From the IMG/VR virus record IMGVR_UViG_3300012000_000090, positions 1 through 30,017 of that record: a DNA stretch of 30,017 nt. One strand, 5' to 3'. Shown piece after piece: positions 1,728-18,760 of the stretch (positions within the stretch are counted from its first letter, which is position 1; every line of letters starts with the position of its first letter). The notes beneath the pieces were generated by a model. The model was not told the origin of the DNA, made no database searches, and was given only the letters and a program-made list of their open reading frames with translations. This DNA comes from a virus. The position numbers and the translations under genes are program-made.

Positions 1728-1916
1728 TTAGTTATTGACCTTTCTTTTTTGTAGTGAGGCATATCGCTTAGCGATAACCATAGCCTTATCAAAACCATAT
1801 TTGTTATTTAGTATTTGGCATTGGCGTATAGTCAATGCATAACTAGGTAGAGGGTTATTGATAGATAGGGCAGATGAACCAAACTCATCTGCTATTTCGT
1901 TATATATAGTGTTCAT
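1728..1916 (-). CDS. Hypothetical 62-residue protein
   Basis: First gene of the minus operon. The product is mostly helical with a basic tail (IAKRYASLQKRKVNN) and the core TIRQCQILNNKYGFDKAMVIAKRY, which could be a small nucleic-acid-binding helix pair, but no family is recognised. An AAAGAAAGG ribosome-binding site lies 9 nt before the ATG. Confidence 0.65.
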   Translation of the reverse strand: MNTIYNEIADEFGSSALSINNPLPSYALTIRQCQILNNKYGFDKAMVIAKRYASLQKRKVNN

Positions 1917-2096
1917 ATTGATGAACCTTTCTTTTATGCGATAACCTTGTGTTATCTTTTCCTTGACCTAGGTTATTTGCCCTATTGCTAGGGGCTCACT
2001 AGGATTTCTTATTTAATTGTTATAGTAGTAATACTAGCACACATACCCTGAAAAGTCAAGGCGACACGCCGTAGGCGTTGTGTGATTAGCGACACA
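1917..2096 (-). promoter_or_regulatory. Minus-strand promoter module with CRP-like site and structured leader
   Basis: Read on minus: imperfect CRP-like palindrome TGTGA-N6-ACACA (2081-2096), box ACGGCGTGTC (as GACACGCCGT on plus, 2063-2072), -35 TTGACT (2059-2054), 17-nt spacer ending in TGC, -10 TAGTAT (2036-2031). The inferred start is about 2024, which puts the palindrome centre at -64.5 and the ACGGCGTGTC centre at -43.5. The roughly 108-nt leader contains two hairpins, 1979-1995 (CCCTA/TAGGG with a GCAA loop) and 1940-1956 (GATAAC/GTTATC), before the AAAGAAAGG ribosome-binding site. The CRP-like site overlaps the end of the upstream zinc-ribbon gene. Confidence 0.7.
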
Positions 2097-2205
2097 TAAC
2101 GCAGGTTTCCCACGCTGTTACACGCTCACACTTGGAACACTTGACATATCCAAGCCATTTGTCCATTTCAGGGCTATTGCCCTGTTCGTAAATTCTGTTA
2201 GTCAT
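2086..2205 (-). CDS. Zinc-ribbon microprotein (paralogue A)
   Basis: A 39-residue protein with C23-xx-C26 and C35-xx-C38, a complete CxxC-x8-CxxC zinc ribbon. It is a clear paralogue of the plus-strand gene at 3197-3316: the two share MTNRI, EQGN and the whole VKCSKCERVTAWETCVMC core. The start at 2205 follows an AGAAAGGGTC ribosome-binding site. An upstream in-frame extension to 2346 would cross the promoter and is rejected. Partner and function unknown. Confidence 0.75.
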   Translation of the reverse strand: MTNRIYEQGNSPEMDKWLGYVKCSKCERVTAWETCVMCR

Positions 2206-2319
2206 TTTGACCCTTTCTAGTTTAGAGACCTTCTCTAACTTTCTAATACTGGAAGTATAGCATAGCCTATGCCAAAAGTCAAGTCCTAGCACGGCGTGTC
2301 GCATGTGATGTCGCTCACA
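2206..2319 (-). promoter_or_regulatory. Minus-strand promoter module of zinc-ribbon paralogue A
   Basis: On minus: perfect CRP-like palindrome TGTGATGTCGCTCACA (2304-2319), ACGGCGTGTC on the plus strand at 2291-2300, -35 TTGACT (2282-2277), 17-nt spacer ending TGC, -10 TATACT (2259-2254). With a start near 2247 the palindrome centre is at -64.5. The leader holds the hairpin TTAGAGA-AGG-TCTCTAA (2238-2222), equivalent to the AGG-loop hairpins of the plus-strand modules at 2423-2441 and 3161-3181. Confidence 0.72.
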
Positions 2320-2331
2320 CGCCCCGAGCAA

Positions 2332-2458
2332 TGTGGTGTACATCACAAAAATAGTTTCACGACACGCCCATAAATACCCCCAAAATGTCAGTGGTAGGTG
2401 TTATACTTCTAGTATAAAGAAAGTTGATAAAGGTTATCAACAAAGAAAGGAAAACAAA
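2332..2458 (+). promoter_or_regulatory. Promoter module: CRP-like site, TGTCAG-N10 promoter, AGG-loop hairpin
   Basis: CRP-like site TGTGGTGTACATCACA (2332-2347), GACACGCC box (2361-2368), TGTCAG (2386-2391), exactly 10 nt ending TGT, then -10 TATACT (2402-2407); no recognisable -35. The inferred start is about 2414, putting the CRP-like centre at -74.5. The -10 is followed by its own inverted repeat (TTATACT-TCT-AGTATAA, 2401-2417). The leader carries the perfect hairpin GTTGATAA-AGG-TTATCAAC (2423-2441), then AAAGAAAGG. Confidence 0.72.
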
Positions 2459-2686
2459 ATGTTTTCACTAAAGTATAAAATAGAGTTGAATACTAATCCT
2501 CTATACCCTCTAGGTAAAGAGTTCTCTACTTGCCTAGGTGTTCTAATGAACACAGAACAAGATGCTAATGAGTATCTTGACCTACTAGCCCTTAGAGGTA
2601 CTATCCTAGAGGTAGAACTTGTAGAACTAAAAGACTACAAGCCTAGTAAGTATGTCCCTATCGCTACTACTAGAAGTTGGGAGTAA
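2459..2686 (+). CDS. Hypothetical 75-residue protein
   Basis: The product begins MFSLKYKIELNTNPLYP and has an alpha/beta pattern: strand, helix (NTEQDANEYLDLLALRG), strand (TILEVELVEL). That looks like a compact ferredoxin-like or dodecin-like fold, but no family is recognised. Start chosen at 2459 after AAAGAAAGG; the in-frame extension upstream to 2333 spans the promoter and is rejected. Followed closely by the gene at 2692. Confidence 0.7.
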   Translation: MFSLKYKIELNTNPLYPLGKEFSTCLGVLMNTEQDANEYLDLLALRGTILEVELVELKDYKPSKYVPIATTRSWE

Positions 2687-2691
2687 TCGTA

Positions 2692-2904
2692 ATGAGTTCC
2701 CTTGAAATATTTCGCCTTAATGAACAAGGTGCTGGTTGGGTATCTTTAGAAGATGCTACTACTGCAGAATTGTTAGATTTAGAATTAGCAATAACATTCA
2801 ATGCTCCAATGCAAATGTTATGTTTCAAATGTCATACACCAATTCCAAAAGGTAATGTGTGTGTTAATCACAAAAATGTAAAAGGAGCAATTTACTTTGA
2901 GTAA
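2692..2904 (+). CDS. Small protein with CxxC-x9-C-xx-H zinc site
   Basis: 70 residues. The C-terminal part holds C44-xx-C47 and C57-xx-H60, a likely zinc site; the N-terminal part is an acidic helix (LEDATTAELLDLELAI). ATG 2692 is preceded by GGGAG; an upstream in-frame TTG at 2677 would overlap the previous gene. Role unknown. Confidence 0.68.
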   Translation: MSSLEIFRLNEQGAGWVSLEDATTAELLDLELAITFNAPMQMLCFKCHTPIPKGNVCVNHKNVKGAIYFE

Positions 2905-2998
2905 TTTCTATCAAACTTTTTTTGTAAGTGGTAATGCACTGTTTTGGTTTTCAATGATCTGTTTAGGTTATGGTTTTTATTTATTCGTAAAGGAATAA
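2897..2998 (+). CDS. Possible 33-residue membrane microprotein (TTG start)
   Basis: An open frame overlapping the last codons of the upstream gene, starting TTG at 2897 with AAAGGAG (2881-2887) well placed before it. Residues 12-31 (GNALFWFSMICLGYGFYLFV) are one hydrophobic segment, so a single-pass membrane peptide is expected. The unusual start and small size make it tentative. Confidence 0.45.
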   Translation: MSNFYQTFFVSGNALFWFSMICLGYGFYLFVKE

Positions 2999-3196
2999 AA
3001 AAATCCCGAGCAAAAAGTTATCCACATGATGCACATCACACTATGAATTTACGCTCAAGTTATCCACATGGCGTACATCACAGTGGCATATGTACCTAAT
3101 GTCCGTTTCGTACCCCTCAAAATGTCAGACCCCCCTGTTATACTTACTAGTATAAAGAAAGTTAAATAAAGGTTATTTAACAAGAAAGGTCAAAAA
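2999..3196 (+). promoter_or_regulatory. Promoter module with two DnaA-box/CRP-half-site repeats
   Basis: CCCGAG (3004-3009), then two copies of a composite element about 42 bp apart: AAGTTATCCACATG followed by a CRP-like right half (ATCACA). DnaA boxes TTATCCACA are at 3018-3026 and 3060-3068; CRP-like sites are at 3025-3040 and 3067-3082. Then TGTCAG (3123-3128), 10 nt ending TGT, -10 TATACT (3139-3144), its inverted repeat AGTATA (3149-3154), the hairpin GTTAAATAA-AGG-TTATTTAAC (3161-3181) and AAGAAAGG. With a start near 3151 the nearer CRP-like centre is at -76.5. Confidence 0.72.
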
Positions 3197-3316
3197 ATGA
3201 CAAATAGAATTTTTGAACAAGGTAATACTCCTACTATGAACGAATACTTAGGTTATGTAAAATGCTCTAAATGTGAAAGAGTTACAGCATGGGAAACATG
3301 CGTAATGTGTAAATAA
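3197..3316 (+). CDS. Zinc-ribbon microprotein (paralogue B)
   Basis: 39 residues with CxxC-x8-CxxC, paralogous to the minus-strand gene at 2086-2205; differences are conservative (I/F, S/T, DKW/NEY, R/K). Both copies keep the same leader design (AGG-loop hairpin, AAGAAAGG ribosome-binding site), so gene and regulatory leader were duplicated together and inverted. Function unknown; zinc-dependent protein or nucleic-acid binding is plausible. Confidence 0.75.
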   Translation: MTNRIFEQGNTPTMNEYLGYVKCSKCERVTAWETCVMCK

Positions 3317-3376
3317 TAAATAAATAAAAACTTAATAAAATAAATTTAACTAACAAAAAAAGAAAGGTTGTCAAAA

Positions 3377-3556
3377 ATGATAACACTAGAAAATAAAAAG
3401 TGCGTAGAGCACAATCCAATGAAATCTGCTATCTCAGAATACGCAGATACACAATTCACTTTCTGTCAAGATTGTGAACAAAACATAGAGCGTTGGTATA
3501 ACGATACTGACCCAGAGCGTCTACCTATGTGGACAGATTGGAAGGTTTCTCAATGA
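3377..3556 (+). CDS. Small putative zinc protein
   Basis: 59 residues with C9, H12 and C30-xx-C33, a possible Cys3His zinc site, and an acidic, Trp-rich C-terminus (PMWTDWKV). I chose ATG 3377 after AGAAAGG (3361-3367); a TTG three codons earlier lies too close to that site. The stop overlaps the next start (ATGA). Confidence 0.66.
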   Translation: MITLENKKCVEHNPMKSAISEYADTQFTFCQDCEQNIERWYNDTDPERLPMWTDWKVSQ

Positions 3557-3901: not shown

Positions 3902-4133
3902 CGGGCCCCTTGTGGTGTAAATCACATTAAGTTTACGGCGTGTCGTCTTGACTTTTTGACATTTATCTGTTATACTTCTAGGTATAGAAAAAAATTAAAT
4001 AAGGACAAATTAGGACAATGAGCCTAGCAAATAAATGTGATTAGTATCACAGTGAGCCTAGCGAATAAATGCCCTAAAATGTCAGCCCCCCATGATAGGA
4101 TAGTCCTATCACTTAAAGAAAGGAAGTCTTAAA
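3902..4133 (+). promoter_or_regulatory. Tandem promoter module, each promoter with a CRP-like site at -64.5
   Basis: Promoter 1: CTCGGGCCCC, CRP-like site TGTGGTGTAAATCACA (3911-3926), ACGGCGTGTC (3935-3944), TTGACT (3948-3953), 17 nt, TATACT (3971-3976), start near 3983. Promoter 2: CRP-like site TGTGATTAGTATCACA (4036-4051), TGTCAG (4080-4085), 10 nt ending TGA, TAGGAT (4096-4101) inside an inverted repeat GATAGGA-TAG-TCCTATC, start near 4108. Both palindrome centres are 64.5 bp upstream of the inferred starts. A 19-nt direct repeat beginning TGAGCCTAGC flanks the second palindrome (4019-4037, 4053-4071; one mismatch). Confidence 0.72.
4018..4044 (+). CDS. Possible leader mini-ORF, 8 residues
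   Basis: ATG at 4018 preceded by AGGACA encodes MSLANKCD and stops at TAG 4042-4044, downstream of promoter 1 and upstream of promoter 2. Its 3' end overlaps the CRP-like palindrome. It could be a leader peptide or chance; only the placed ribosome-binding site supports it. Confidence 0.25.
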   Translation: MSLANKCD

Positions 4134-4319
4134 ATGACTTACACTATAACACTAGAAACCTTTTCAGGTTCTACAAAAAAAATCGCTATGCCTAGCAAGG
4201 GTGCGGTTGCTCAATTCATCTCCACTTATCCAAATCAGTTACCTGTTGGCGTATCTGTTAAAGTCGCTTGCGATACTCTTGGAATTAGTGGCACACTTAG
4301 AGGAAAGAAGGTTCTCTAA
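4134..4319 (+). CDS. Hypothetical 61-residue protein
   Basis: Starts MTYTITLETFSGSTKKIAM, then a helix (SKGAVAQFISTYP) and two strands ending SGTLRGKKVL; basic at the C-terminus. First gene after the tandem promoters, with AAAGAAAGGAAG upstream. Its stop shares one base with the next ATG (TAATG). Function unknown. Confidence 0.68.
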   Translation: MTYTITLETFSGSTKKIAMPSKGAVAQFISTYPNQLPVGVSVKVACDTLGISGTLRGKKVL

Positions 4320-10984: not shown

Positions 10985-11058
10985 GGTTCCATAGATCAAT
11001 TGGTTAGATCGCTACCCTGTCACGGTAGAGGCTACGGGTTCAAGTCCCGTTGGAATCG
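10985..11058 (+). tRNA. tRNA-Asp (GTC)
   Basis: A 74-nt cloverleaf: acceptor GGTTCCA/TGGAATC, D stem GATC/GATC, anticodon arm CTACC-CTGTCAC-GGTAG with anticodon GTC, T arm ACGGG-TTCAAGT-CCCGT, discriminator G as expected for Asp. CCA is not encoded. It is 38 nt after the DUF932 stop and has no clear promoter of its own, so it is probably processed from that transcript. Confidence 0.92.
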
Positions 11059-18435: not shown

Positions 18436-18509
18436 GCAACAGTAGCCAAGTTGGTCAAGGCCCTGAACTCATAATTCAGTTATCGTAGGTTCAAGTCCTA
18501 CCTGTTGTA
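18436..18509 (+). tRNA. tRNA with CAT anticodon (Met or Ile2)
   Basis: Acceptor GCAACAG/CTGTTGT with one G-U pair, anticodon arm CTGAA-CTCATAA-TTCAG, T arm GTAGG-TTCAAGT-CCTAC, discriminator A, no encoded CCA. CAT with this body could be elongator Met or a lysidine-modified Ile tRNA; sequence alone does not decide. Confidence 0.85.
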
Positions 18510-18510
18510 C

Positions 18511-18586
18511 TGGTCTGTAACTCAGTTGGTAGAGTGCCGAACTGTTAATTCGGATGTCGCAGGATCGTAGCCTGCCAGACCAGCCA
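18511..18586 (+). tRNA. tRNA-Asn (GTT), CCA encoded
   Basis: Acceptor TGGTCTG/CAGACCA, anticodon arm CCGAA-CTGTTAA-TTCGG, T arm GCAGG-ATCGTAG-CCTGC, discriminator G and CCA (18584-18586). The T loop starts A instead of the usual T, an oddity. Confidence 0.88.
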
Positions 18587-18587
18587 A

Positions 18588-18663
18588 GCGAAAGTAACTC
18601 AATTGGTAGAGTTTCTGCCTTCCAAGCAGAATGTTGCGAGTTCAAGTCTCGTCTTTCGCTCCA
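18588..18663 (+). tRNA. tRNA-Gly (TCC), CCA encoded
   Basis: Acceptor GCGAAAG/CTTTCGC, anticodon arm TCTGC-CTTCCAA-GCAGA, T arm GCGAG-TTCAAGT-CTCGT, discriminator T, CCA (18661-18663). Starts 1 nt after the Asn CCA. Confidence 0.88.
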
Positions 18664-18664
18664 A

Positions 18665-18737
18665 GCCTCTGTAGTTCAGTGGATAGAACAAAGGACTTCT
18701 AAGCCCTGTGTCGCAGGGTCAATTCCTGCCAGGGGCA
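18665..18737 (+). tRNA. tRNA-Arg (TCT) with weakened anticodon stem
   Basis: Acceptor GCCTCTG/CAGGGGC, D arm GTTC/GAAC, loop CTTCTAA with anticodon TCT, T stem GCAGG/CCTGC with loop GTCAATT, discriminator A. The anticodon stem AAGGA/GCCCT has only three pairs (A28-C42 and A31-G39 fail), so it may be a degenerating or specialised tRNA. AGA codons are frequent in this AT-rich phage, which would explain keeping it. CCA is not encoded. Confidence 0.75.
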
Positions 18738-18760
18738 CGTTAACATGCTATACTTTTAAC
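18726..18760 (+). promoter_or_regulatory. Leaderless promoter of the glycosyltransferase operon
   Basis: A weak -35 CTGCCA-like stretch lies in the end of the tRNA-Arg gene; 17 nt later TATACT (18749-18754, preceded by TGC), then exactly 6 nt to ATG 18761. Confidence 0.6.

Follow-up and report, generated by a model that had tools for sequence, protein, structure and literature searches.

Several small genes of an uncultured phage are preceded by leaders in which hairpins of differing sequence recur at similar places. Is this pairing under selection, and if so, does it act in the RNA? The initial annotation had pointed to three leaders with a stem-AGG-stem hairpin and a fourth with a GATAAC/GTTATC stem, and had proposed a selected RNA structure acting as a 5' stabiliser, a decoy Shine-Dalgarno (SD) sequence or a protein site. 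We analysed these leaders in the window, by which we mean the whole stretch of DNA (30,017 bases, GC 36%, which make up one entire virus record in IMG/VR), and in its relatives.

Hairpins in the leaders of the window

All four hairpins were confirmed (Table 1), and the three with an AGG loop each begin 15-16 nt past their own TATACT, in agreement with the similar distance from the -10 that had been claimed. Stems of at least 7 bp with an AGG loop occur three times in the window, against a mean of 0.1 and a maximum of 1 in 60 dinucleotide shuffles. Two details had to be corrected. The GATAAC/GTTATC stem of leader 4 is present but encloses ACAAG and not AGG, and the supposedly constant AAGAAAGG after the hairpin is found in two of the three AGG leaders, the element common to all being AGAAAGG, the SD. 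An inverted repeat over the start codon, absent from the initial annotation, is present in all four leaders. Folding recovered both the upstream hairpin (HP1) and the start-codon hairpin (HP2) in four of four leaders, with z-scores of -4.5, -2.5, -1.0 and -3.5; at -1.0, leader 3 is unremarkable by energy taken alone.

Table 1. Leader elements and downstream genes in the window
Leader	Feature	Positions	Strand	Remark
1	Putative promoter TGTCAGTG-N8-TATACT	2386..2407	+	Extended -10 TGT-TATACT; from sequence
1	Inverted repeat over -10 ('HP0'), TTATACT-TCT-AGTATAA	2401..2417	+	
1	HP1, GTTGATAA-AGG-TTATCAAC	2423..2441	+	8 bp, AGG loop
1	SD AGAAAGG	2444..2450	+	
1	HP2, GAAAACA-AAA-TGTTTTC	2450..2466	+	AUG 2459-2461
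1	75-aa ORF, MFSLKYKIEL...	2459..2686	+	Relatives found by homology
2	Putative promoter TGTCAG-N7-TGT-TATACT	3123..3144	+	From sequence
2	Inverted repeat over -10, TTATACT-TACT-AGTATAA	3138..3155	+	
2	HP1, GTTAAATAA-AGG-TTATTTAAC	3161..3181	+	9 bp, AGG loop
2	SD AGAAAGG	3183..3189	+	
2	HP2, GTCA-AAAAA-TGAC	3189..3201	+	Weak
2	39-aa four-cysteine (zinc-finger-like) ORF	3197..3316	+	Paralogue of 2086..2205 (-)
3	Putative promoter TTGACT-N17-TATACT	2254..2282	-	
3	HP1, TTAGAGA-AGG-TCTCTAA	2222..2238	-	7 bp plus bulged extension
3	SD AGAAAGG	2212..2218	-	
3	HP2, GTCA-AAA-TGAC	2201..2211	-	AUG 2205-2203
3	39-aa four-cysteine ORF	2086..2205	-	Paralogue of 3197..3316 (+)
4	HP1, GATAAC-ACAAG-GTTATC	1940..1956	-	Orthologues carry other stems
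4	SD AGAAAGG	1926..1932	-	
4	HP2, GTTCAT-CAAT-ATGAAC	1911..1926	-	Start codon wholly within stem
4	62-aa ORF, MNTIYNEIADEF...	1728..1916	-	
5	Inverted repeat TGATAGGA-TAG-TCCTATCA	4093..4111	+	Overlaps possible -10 TAGGAT
5	SD AGAAAGG	4117..4123	+	
5	HP2, AAGTC-TTAAAAT-GACTT	4124..4140	+	AUG 4134-4136
	AGAAAGG (3361-3367) and HP2, GTTGTCA-AAAA-TGATAAC	3361..3384	+	One G.U pair

The inverted repeat of leader 5 may be either HP1 or a -10 palindrome, and no HP1 was recognisable at the AGAAAGG site at 3361-3367. The window leaders precede small ORFs; those scanned gave no family match, and the 75-aa ORF matched neither Pfam nor PHROG. The 39-aa proteins behind leaders 2 and 3, encoded on opposite strands and each preceded by the same kind of leader, are near-identical (MTNRI[FY]EQGN...CSKCERVTAWETCVMC[KR]), and these two leaders are therefore probably copies of one ancestor. 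The window also holds four tandem tRNA genes at 18436-18738 (for Met, Asn and Gly, the fourth having an ambiguous anticodon) and tRNA-Asp at 10985.

Two kinds of putative promoter were found, TGTCAG-N7-TGY-TATACT and TTGACT-N17-TATACT. The actinobacterial DNA-damage promoter PafBC/P1 has the consensus tTGTCRgtg-8-TAnnnT, which the predicted promoter of leader 1 appears to fit except at the first base (PMC5656591). Leader 2 fits in part and leader 3 is without it, and many relatives carry TGTCAGAC or TTGACT-N17-TATACT instead. An actinobacterial host is suggested by the GP88 and DUF932 genes together with the relatives that these have in databases. The leader pattern was absent from the genome contigs searched for a host, where the promoter pattern gave scattered matches in a chance-like number, and none of the named phages in the collection searched had the leader or the 75-aa protein. 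One of these promoter matches fell on a phage-like contig that carries the leader (L195:5507-5537); it was binned in a MAG labelled 'uncultured cyanobacterium' and is probably a mis-binned phage. A dispersed repeat consisting of GAGCC, a variable and often self-complementary middle and GCAAATAA often lies upstream of leaders, in the window at 1997-1973 (-) and 4020-4034 (+) and at many other loci; one example, GAGCCTAGCAAATAA, has 127 copies in the fetched loci.

Covariation of HP1 and HP2 in relatives

A pattern scan of IMG/VR with conserved flanks and a free middle gave 109 stretches, comprising 22 distinct leader cores. The scan pattern fixes part of the 5' arm, and we therefore also fetched leaders by the promoter only; further leaders were fetched by homology of the downstream gene alone, blind to the leader. 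Hairpins were aligned on their own, since a MAFFT alignment of whole leaders misplaces the stems.

Among 17 distinct cores, 98.3% of the HP1 cells are paired, with 26 double changes against 6.4 after shuffling; the covariation score is 0.621, whereas shuffled cores score 0.188 and slid controls reach 0.186 at most. A covariance model recovered the three copies in the window and gave 57 matches in protein-fetched and 32 in promoter-fetched loci. The model was built from ten cores with a structure that we supplied, and the pair counts on its matches lean accordingly: 100% of cells are paired in both sets, with 34 double changes against 7.9 in shuffled controls and a score of 0.632 against 0.184 for the protein-fetched loci, and 25 against 6.8 and 0.675 against 0.213 for the promoter-fetched loci (slid controls at most 0.18 in both). 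The hairpin-blind and ortholog-based sets are independent of the supplied structure, and the leaders fetched by homology carry the same hairpins. Before one and the same gene, these leaders have different, fully paired HP1 stems in different phages: GTTAAGAA/TTCTTAAC, ATCAAGAA/TTCTTGAT, GTTAATCA/TGATTAAC and AGTAACA/TGTTACT before the MFSL... gene, and GATAAC/GTTATC, GTTACC/GGTAAC, GTTAGC/GCTAAC and GATTAGA/TCTAATC before the MNTIYNEI... family. HP1 is a perfect hairpin of 6-10 bp, with 46 distinct perfect stems when those clear of a -10 are counted. The paired double changes in relatives strongly support the compensatory change and selected structure proposed at the outset; a lack of copies in relatives and unpaired substitutions had been named as outcomes that would speak against it, and neither was seen.

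The AGG loop proved not to be constant, as relatives and orthologous leaders show AAG, AAC, AGT, CGG, ACAAG, AAATA and TAAAGAAAT. This variation weakens the proposals of a decoy SD and of a protein site, both of which had relied on a constant loop, and in that form we rejected them. The promoter-only set comprises the AGG class, further hairpin classes and hairpin-free leaders, several of them before apparently other types of gene. In one of the further classes, AGCGG-TAAAGAAAT-CCGCT, the stems vary; in another, a GAANAANAAGTA loop is enclosed by GATT or GGTT paired with AATC or AACC. A second leader class, with a TAAAGAAAT or TACAGAAAT loop before the same SD and the covarying stems AGCGG/CCGCT, AGAGG/CCTCT, AAGGG/CCCTT and AGTGG/CCACT, was seen at loci L024, L074, L123, L124, L130, L148 and L159. 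Identical stems at first seemed to be avoided within a genome (0 of 241 against 9.9); we discarded this idea, as the effect was not significant once the loop class was restricted and the set dereplicated (0 of 20 against 1.4, p 0.24).

HP1 is linked to the SD. Among 639 AGAAAGG leaders, 183 have an HP1 of 7 bp or more, against 16 after shuffling; it lies mostly 1-9 nt before the SD with peaks at 1-3 and 6-8 nt, whether or not a promoter was recognised; many AGAAAGG genes are without HP1.

HP2 pairs the spacer between SD and AUG with codons 1-4, and it covaries as well. Of 410 distinct starts, 159 have it, whereas re-dealing of spacers and codons gives 41 (58 at most); when each distinct set of codons 2-4 was entered once, the figures were 73 of 256 against 17. 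The promoter-selected set gave 38 of 79 against 7.5 in the control, and all AGAAAGG starts gave 101 of 364 against 18.8. At other SDs, HP2 is at or near chance (AGAAGGA 2/177, AGGAGG 2/78, AGAAAAGG 2/71); it is also enriched at GAAAGGAG-type starts (29/79 against 5.7), some of which may be the same genes with the SD read in another register. The A of the AUG is looped with U and G paired in 78 cases and A and U are looped in 35, while the codon lies fully in the stem in 33 and fully in the loop in 13. The protein N-termini track the HP2 stem (MNS, MKS, MTS, MTT, MFS, MIT), and synonymous codons are matched by the spacer, as in GAATTC-AAAT-GAATTC and GAGTTC-TAAT-GAACTC, both of which encode MNS.

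A proposed role in translation initiation and its alternatives

The structure of the start regions of many small genes in this freshwater phage group is almost certainly under selection, and the selected shape probably controls the start of translation. We give about even chances to the specific proposal that these structured regions form an RNA module that tunes initiation, laid out as HP1, an exposed SD outside both hairpins, and HP2 over the start codon. HP1 would prevent base pairing between the initiation region and sequence further upstream, and the 30S subunit could bind first at the exposed SD and at the unpaired RNA around HP1, a standby site. The spacer would fold with the AUG and codons 2-4 into HP2, the AUG lying at the apex or in the 3' arm, and the 30S subunit would have to open this hairpin before the AUG could be placed. 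How stable HP2 is would then determine the rate of initiation, which would be modest and rather uniform among these small and mostly unannotated genes. What the data show is the covariation, the positions and the link with AGAAAGG genes; we infer the transcription start sites, the action of HP1 in RNA and the entire effect on translation, the route from docking at the SD to the opening of HP2 by analogy with MS2 and with standby modules.

The predicted mean energies at 37 C are -5.3 kcal/mol for HP1 and -5.1 kcal/mol for HP2, the latter reaching about -8 at 20 C. Equilibrium folding at 20 C gave an accessibility of 0.72 for the SD and 0.48 for the AUG, against 0.73 and 0.43 in shuffled leaders. 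Better exposure of the SD by the leader was thus not seen in folding, and we dropped this idea; because accessibility is no better and no worse than in shuffled leaders, equilibrium folding reveals neither insulation nor repression. With no net change in accessibility, the leader would fix geometry and would not be a simple open/closed switch. We consider improbable a genome-wide translational regulon in which a factor made or altered during infection opens or closes the shared leader and thereby switches many of the small phage genes at once, while the N-termini of the proteins are constrained by having to pair with the leaders of their own genes.

Unlikely as an alternative to the initiation module is a role of HP1 as a 5'-end stabiliser of the mRNA against a 5'-dependent RNase, with HP2 incidental or an extra brake. 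HP1 of the promoter class does start 15-16 nt after the -10, which places it about 8-10 nt from where transcription is expected to begin, and a stabiliser would need pairing that is free of sequence, as we see it. HP1 stays near the SD, however, where no promoter is recognised just upstream, for example in leader 4 and its orthologues, which weakens the pure stabiliser of the initial annotation, and the presence of HP2 would be left unexplained.

Recognition of the hairpins by an RNA-binding protein or ribosomal protein S1, which would make the genes a phage regulon with AGG/AAG, ACAAG, TAAAGAAAT and GAANAANAAGTA loops as alternative recognition elements, is in our view distinctly unlikely. 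It would accord with loops that are conserved inside a class while stems vary, and with the many genes per genome that share the leader (at least four in the window). Orthologous leaders of one gene nevertheless differ in their loop, so that no single loop is required, and the analysis found no candidate regulator.

Wobble pairs help to distinguish between selection on RNA and on DNA. HP2 stems with one wobble occur in 90 leaders against 11.7 after re-pairing and A.C stems in 10 against 4.7; these are counts of leaders, relatives included, and by distinct stems the figures are 16 against 5. For HP1 we abandoned sense-strand wobble as proof, as a first count was inflated by stems overlapping the -10; with these removed, the signal is weak (8 stems with G.U, 3 with A.C) and almost every stem is perfect. 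Wobble thus clearly backs RNA-level selection for HP2 only, and near-perfect Watson-Crick pairing with few intermediates, as in HP1, is unusual under pure RNA selection. The inverted repeat at the -10 also covaries (45/308 against 19, and 36/269 against 9.6). It spans the hexamer and the start site at both promoter types, with the arms TATACT/AGTATA, TAGGA/TCCTA, TAGTA/TACTA and TATAAT/ATTATA, and its left arm should escape transcription from that promoter.

Given the rare wobble and the covarying -10 repeat, HP1 could in principle be a DNA-level or templated feature. Palindromic control sites, or templated mutation from arm to arm (quasi-palindrome correction), would suit both the covariation of a -10 arm that should not be transcribed and the almost always perfect pairing of HP1. 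We still judge a DNA-level origin to be quite improbable: the repeats keep to exact positions with respect to the SD and AUG of one gene class, the 46 distinct stems have no palindromic core in common that a DNA-binding protein could recognise, and HP2 has its wobble excess on the mRNA strand and alters protein N-termini. RNA is the better reading for HP1, because it lies between promoter and SD, is tied to the SD and is paired with HP2.

Intrinsic terminators (GC-rich stem and U run) or attenuators are highly improbable, and so is an origin by chance and common descent in the absence of selection. The leaders are indeed related and rich in A and T, and short hairpins do arise by chance, but no leader hairpin is among the predicted terminator sites, the stems are followed by A-rich sequence and not by a U run, and the shuffles and slid controls exclude chance.

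Comparison with known systems

At the Rfam gathering score, the window gave tRNAs only and nothing credible at the leaders. A CsrA/RsmA site has GGA in the loop of a hairpin that overlaps the SD; this candidate was rejected, as the loops here are AGG followed by T, AAG, AAC, ACAAG and others. The N4-type hairpin promoter is a short DNA hairpin used by the virion RNA polymerase, with the start about 11 nt downstream. Such a promoter would presumably put the start site of these leaders in or after the SD.

The nearest described system is the SAS/ESAS of cluster K mycobacteriophages, a leader element by the start codons of non-structural genes; in the source passages used here, ESAS includes a promoter with an inverted repeat upstream, and a role in translation is proposed (PMC3203893, PMC11373665). 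The likeness to our leaders lies in a repeated leader element next to start codons with promoter and upstream inverted repeat. The passages describe a conserved 13-bp sequence for SAS and a 17-bp consensus for the ESAS arms, whereas the arms here are free in sequence and pairing alone is conserved, and a start-codon hairpin such as HP2 does not figure in them. Our leaders fail the tests for a sequence consensus: the SAS consensus GGGATAGGAGCCC has 3 matches in the window with at most 3 mismatches (2.4 expected), none of them at leaders, and the 46 distinct perfect stems yielded no arm consensus.

In the RNA phage MS2, the start codons of the coat and replicase genes are likewise held in local hairpins, whose stability or bound protein controls initiation (PMC9894550). 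An AUG-spanning hairpin conserved by pairing is what we find here (the 159 of 410 starts against 41), with the differences that the SD lies outside the hairpin, that many genes of a dsDNA phage are concerned, and that an extra hairpin upstream leaves the SD bracketed. The ribosome standby-site module, which describes the biophysics in general terms and was tested with designed 5' UTRs, resembles our leaders in having a hairpin flanked by single-stranded sites upstream of the SD (PMC3936740); it is not a conserved phage element and is without HP2.

In E. coli, the approximately 20 nt upstream of start codons tend to be unstructured, and expression is enhanced when there is less folding just past the start codon (PMC4619774). 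Selection in a large phage group appears to run against this trend on many genes, to the extent that codons 2-4 covary with the leader. The leaders of this group amount to many natural experiments on how hairpins around SD and AUG tune translation, and the covariation signature can be used to find this class of genes in uncultured phages.
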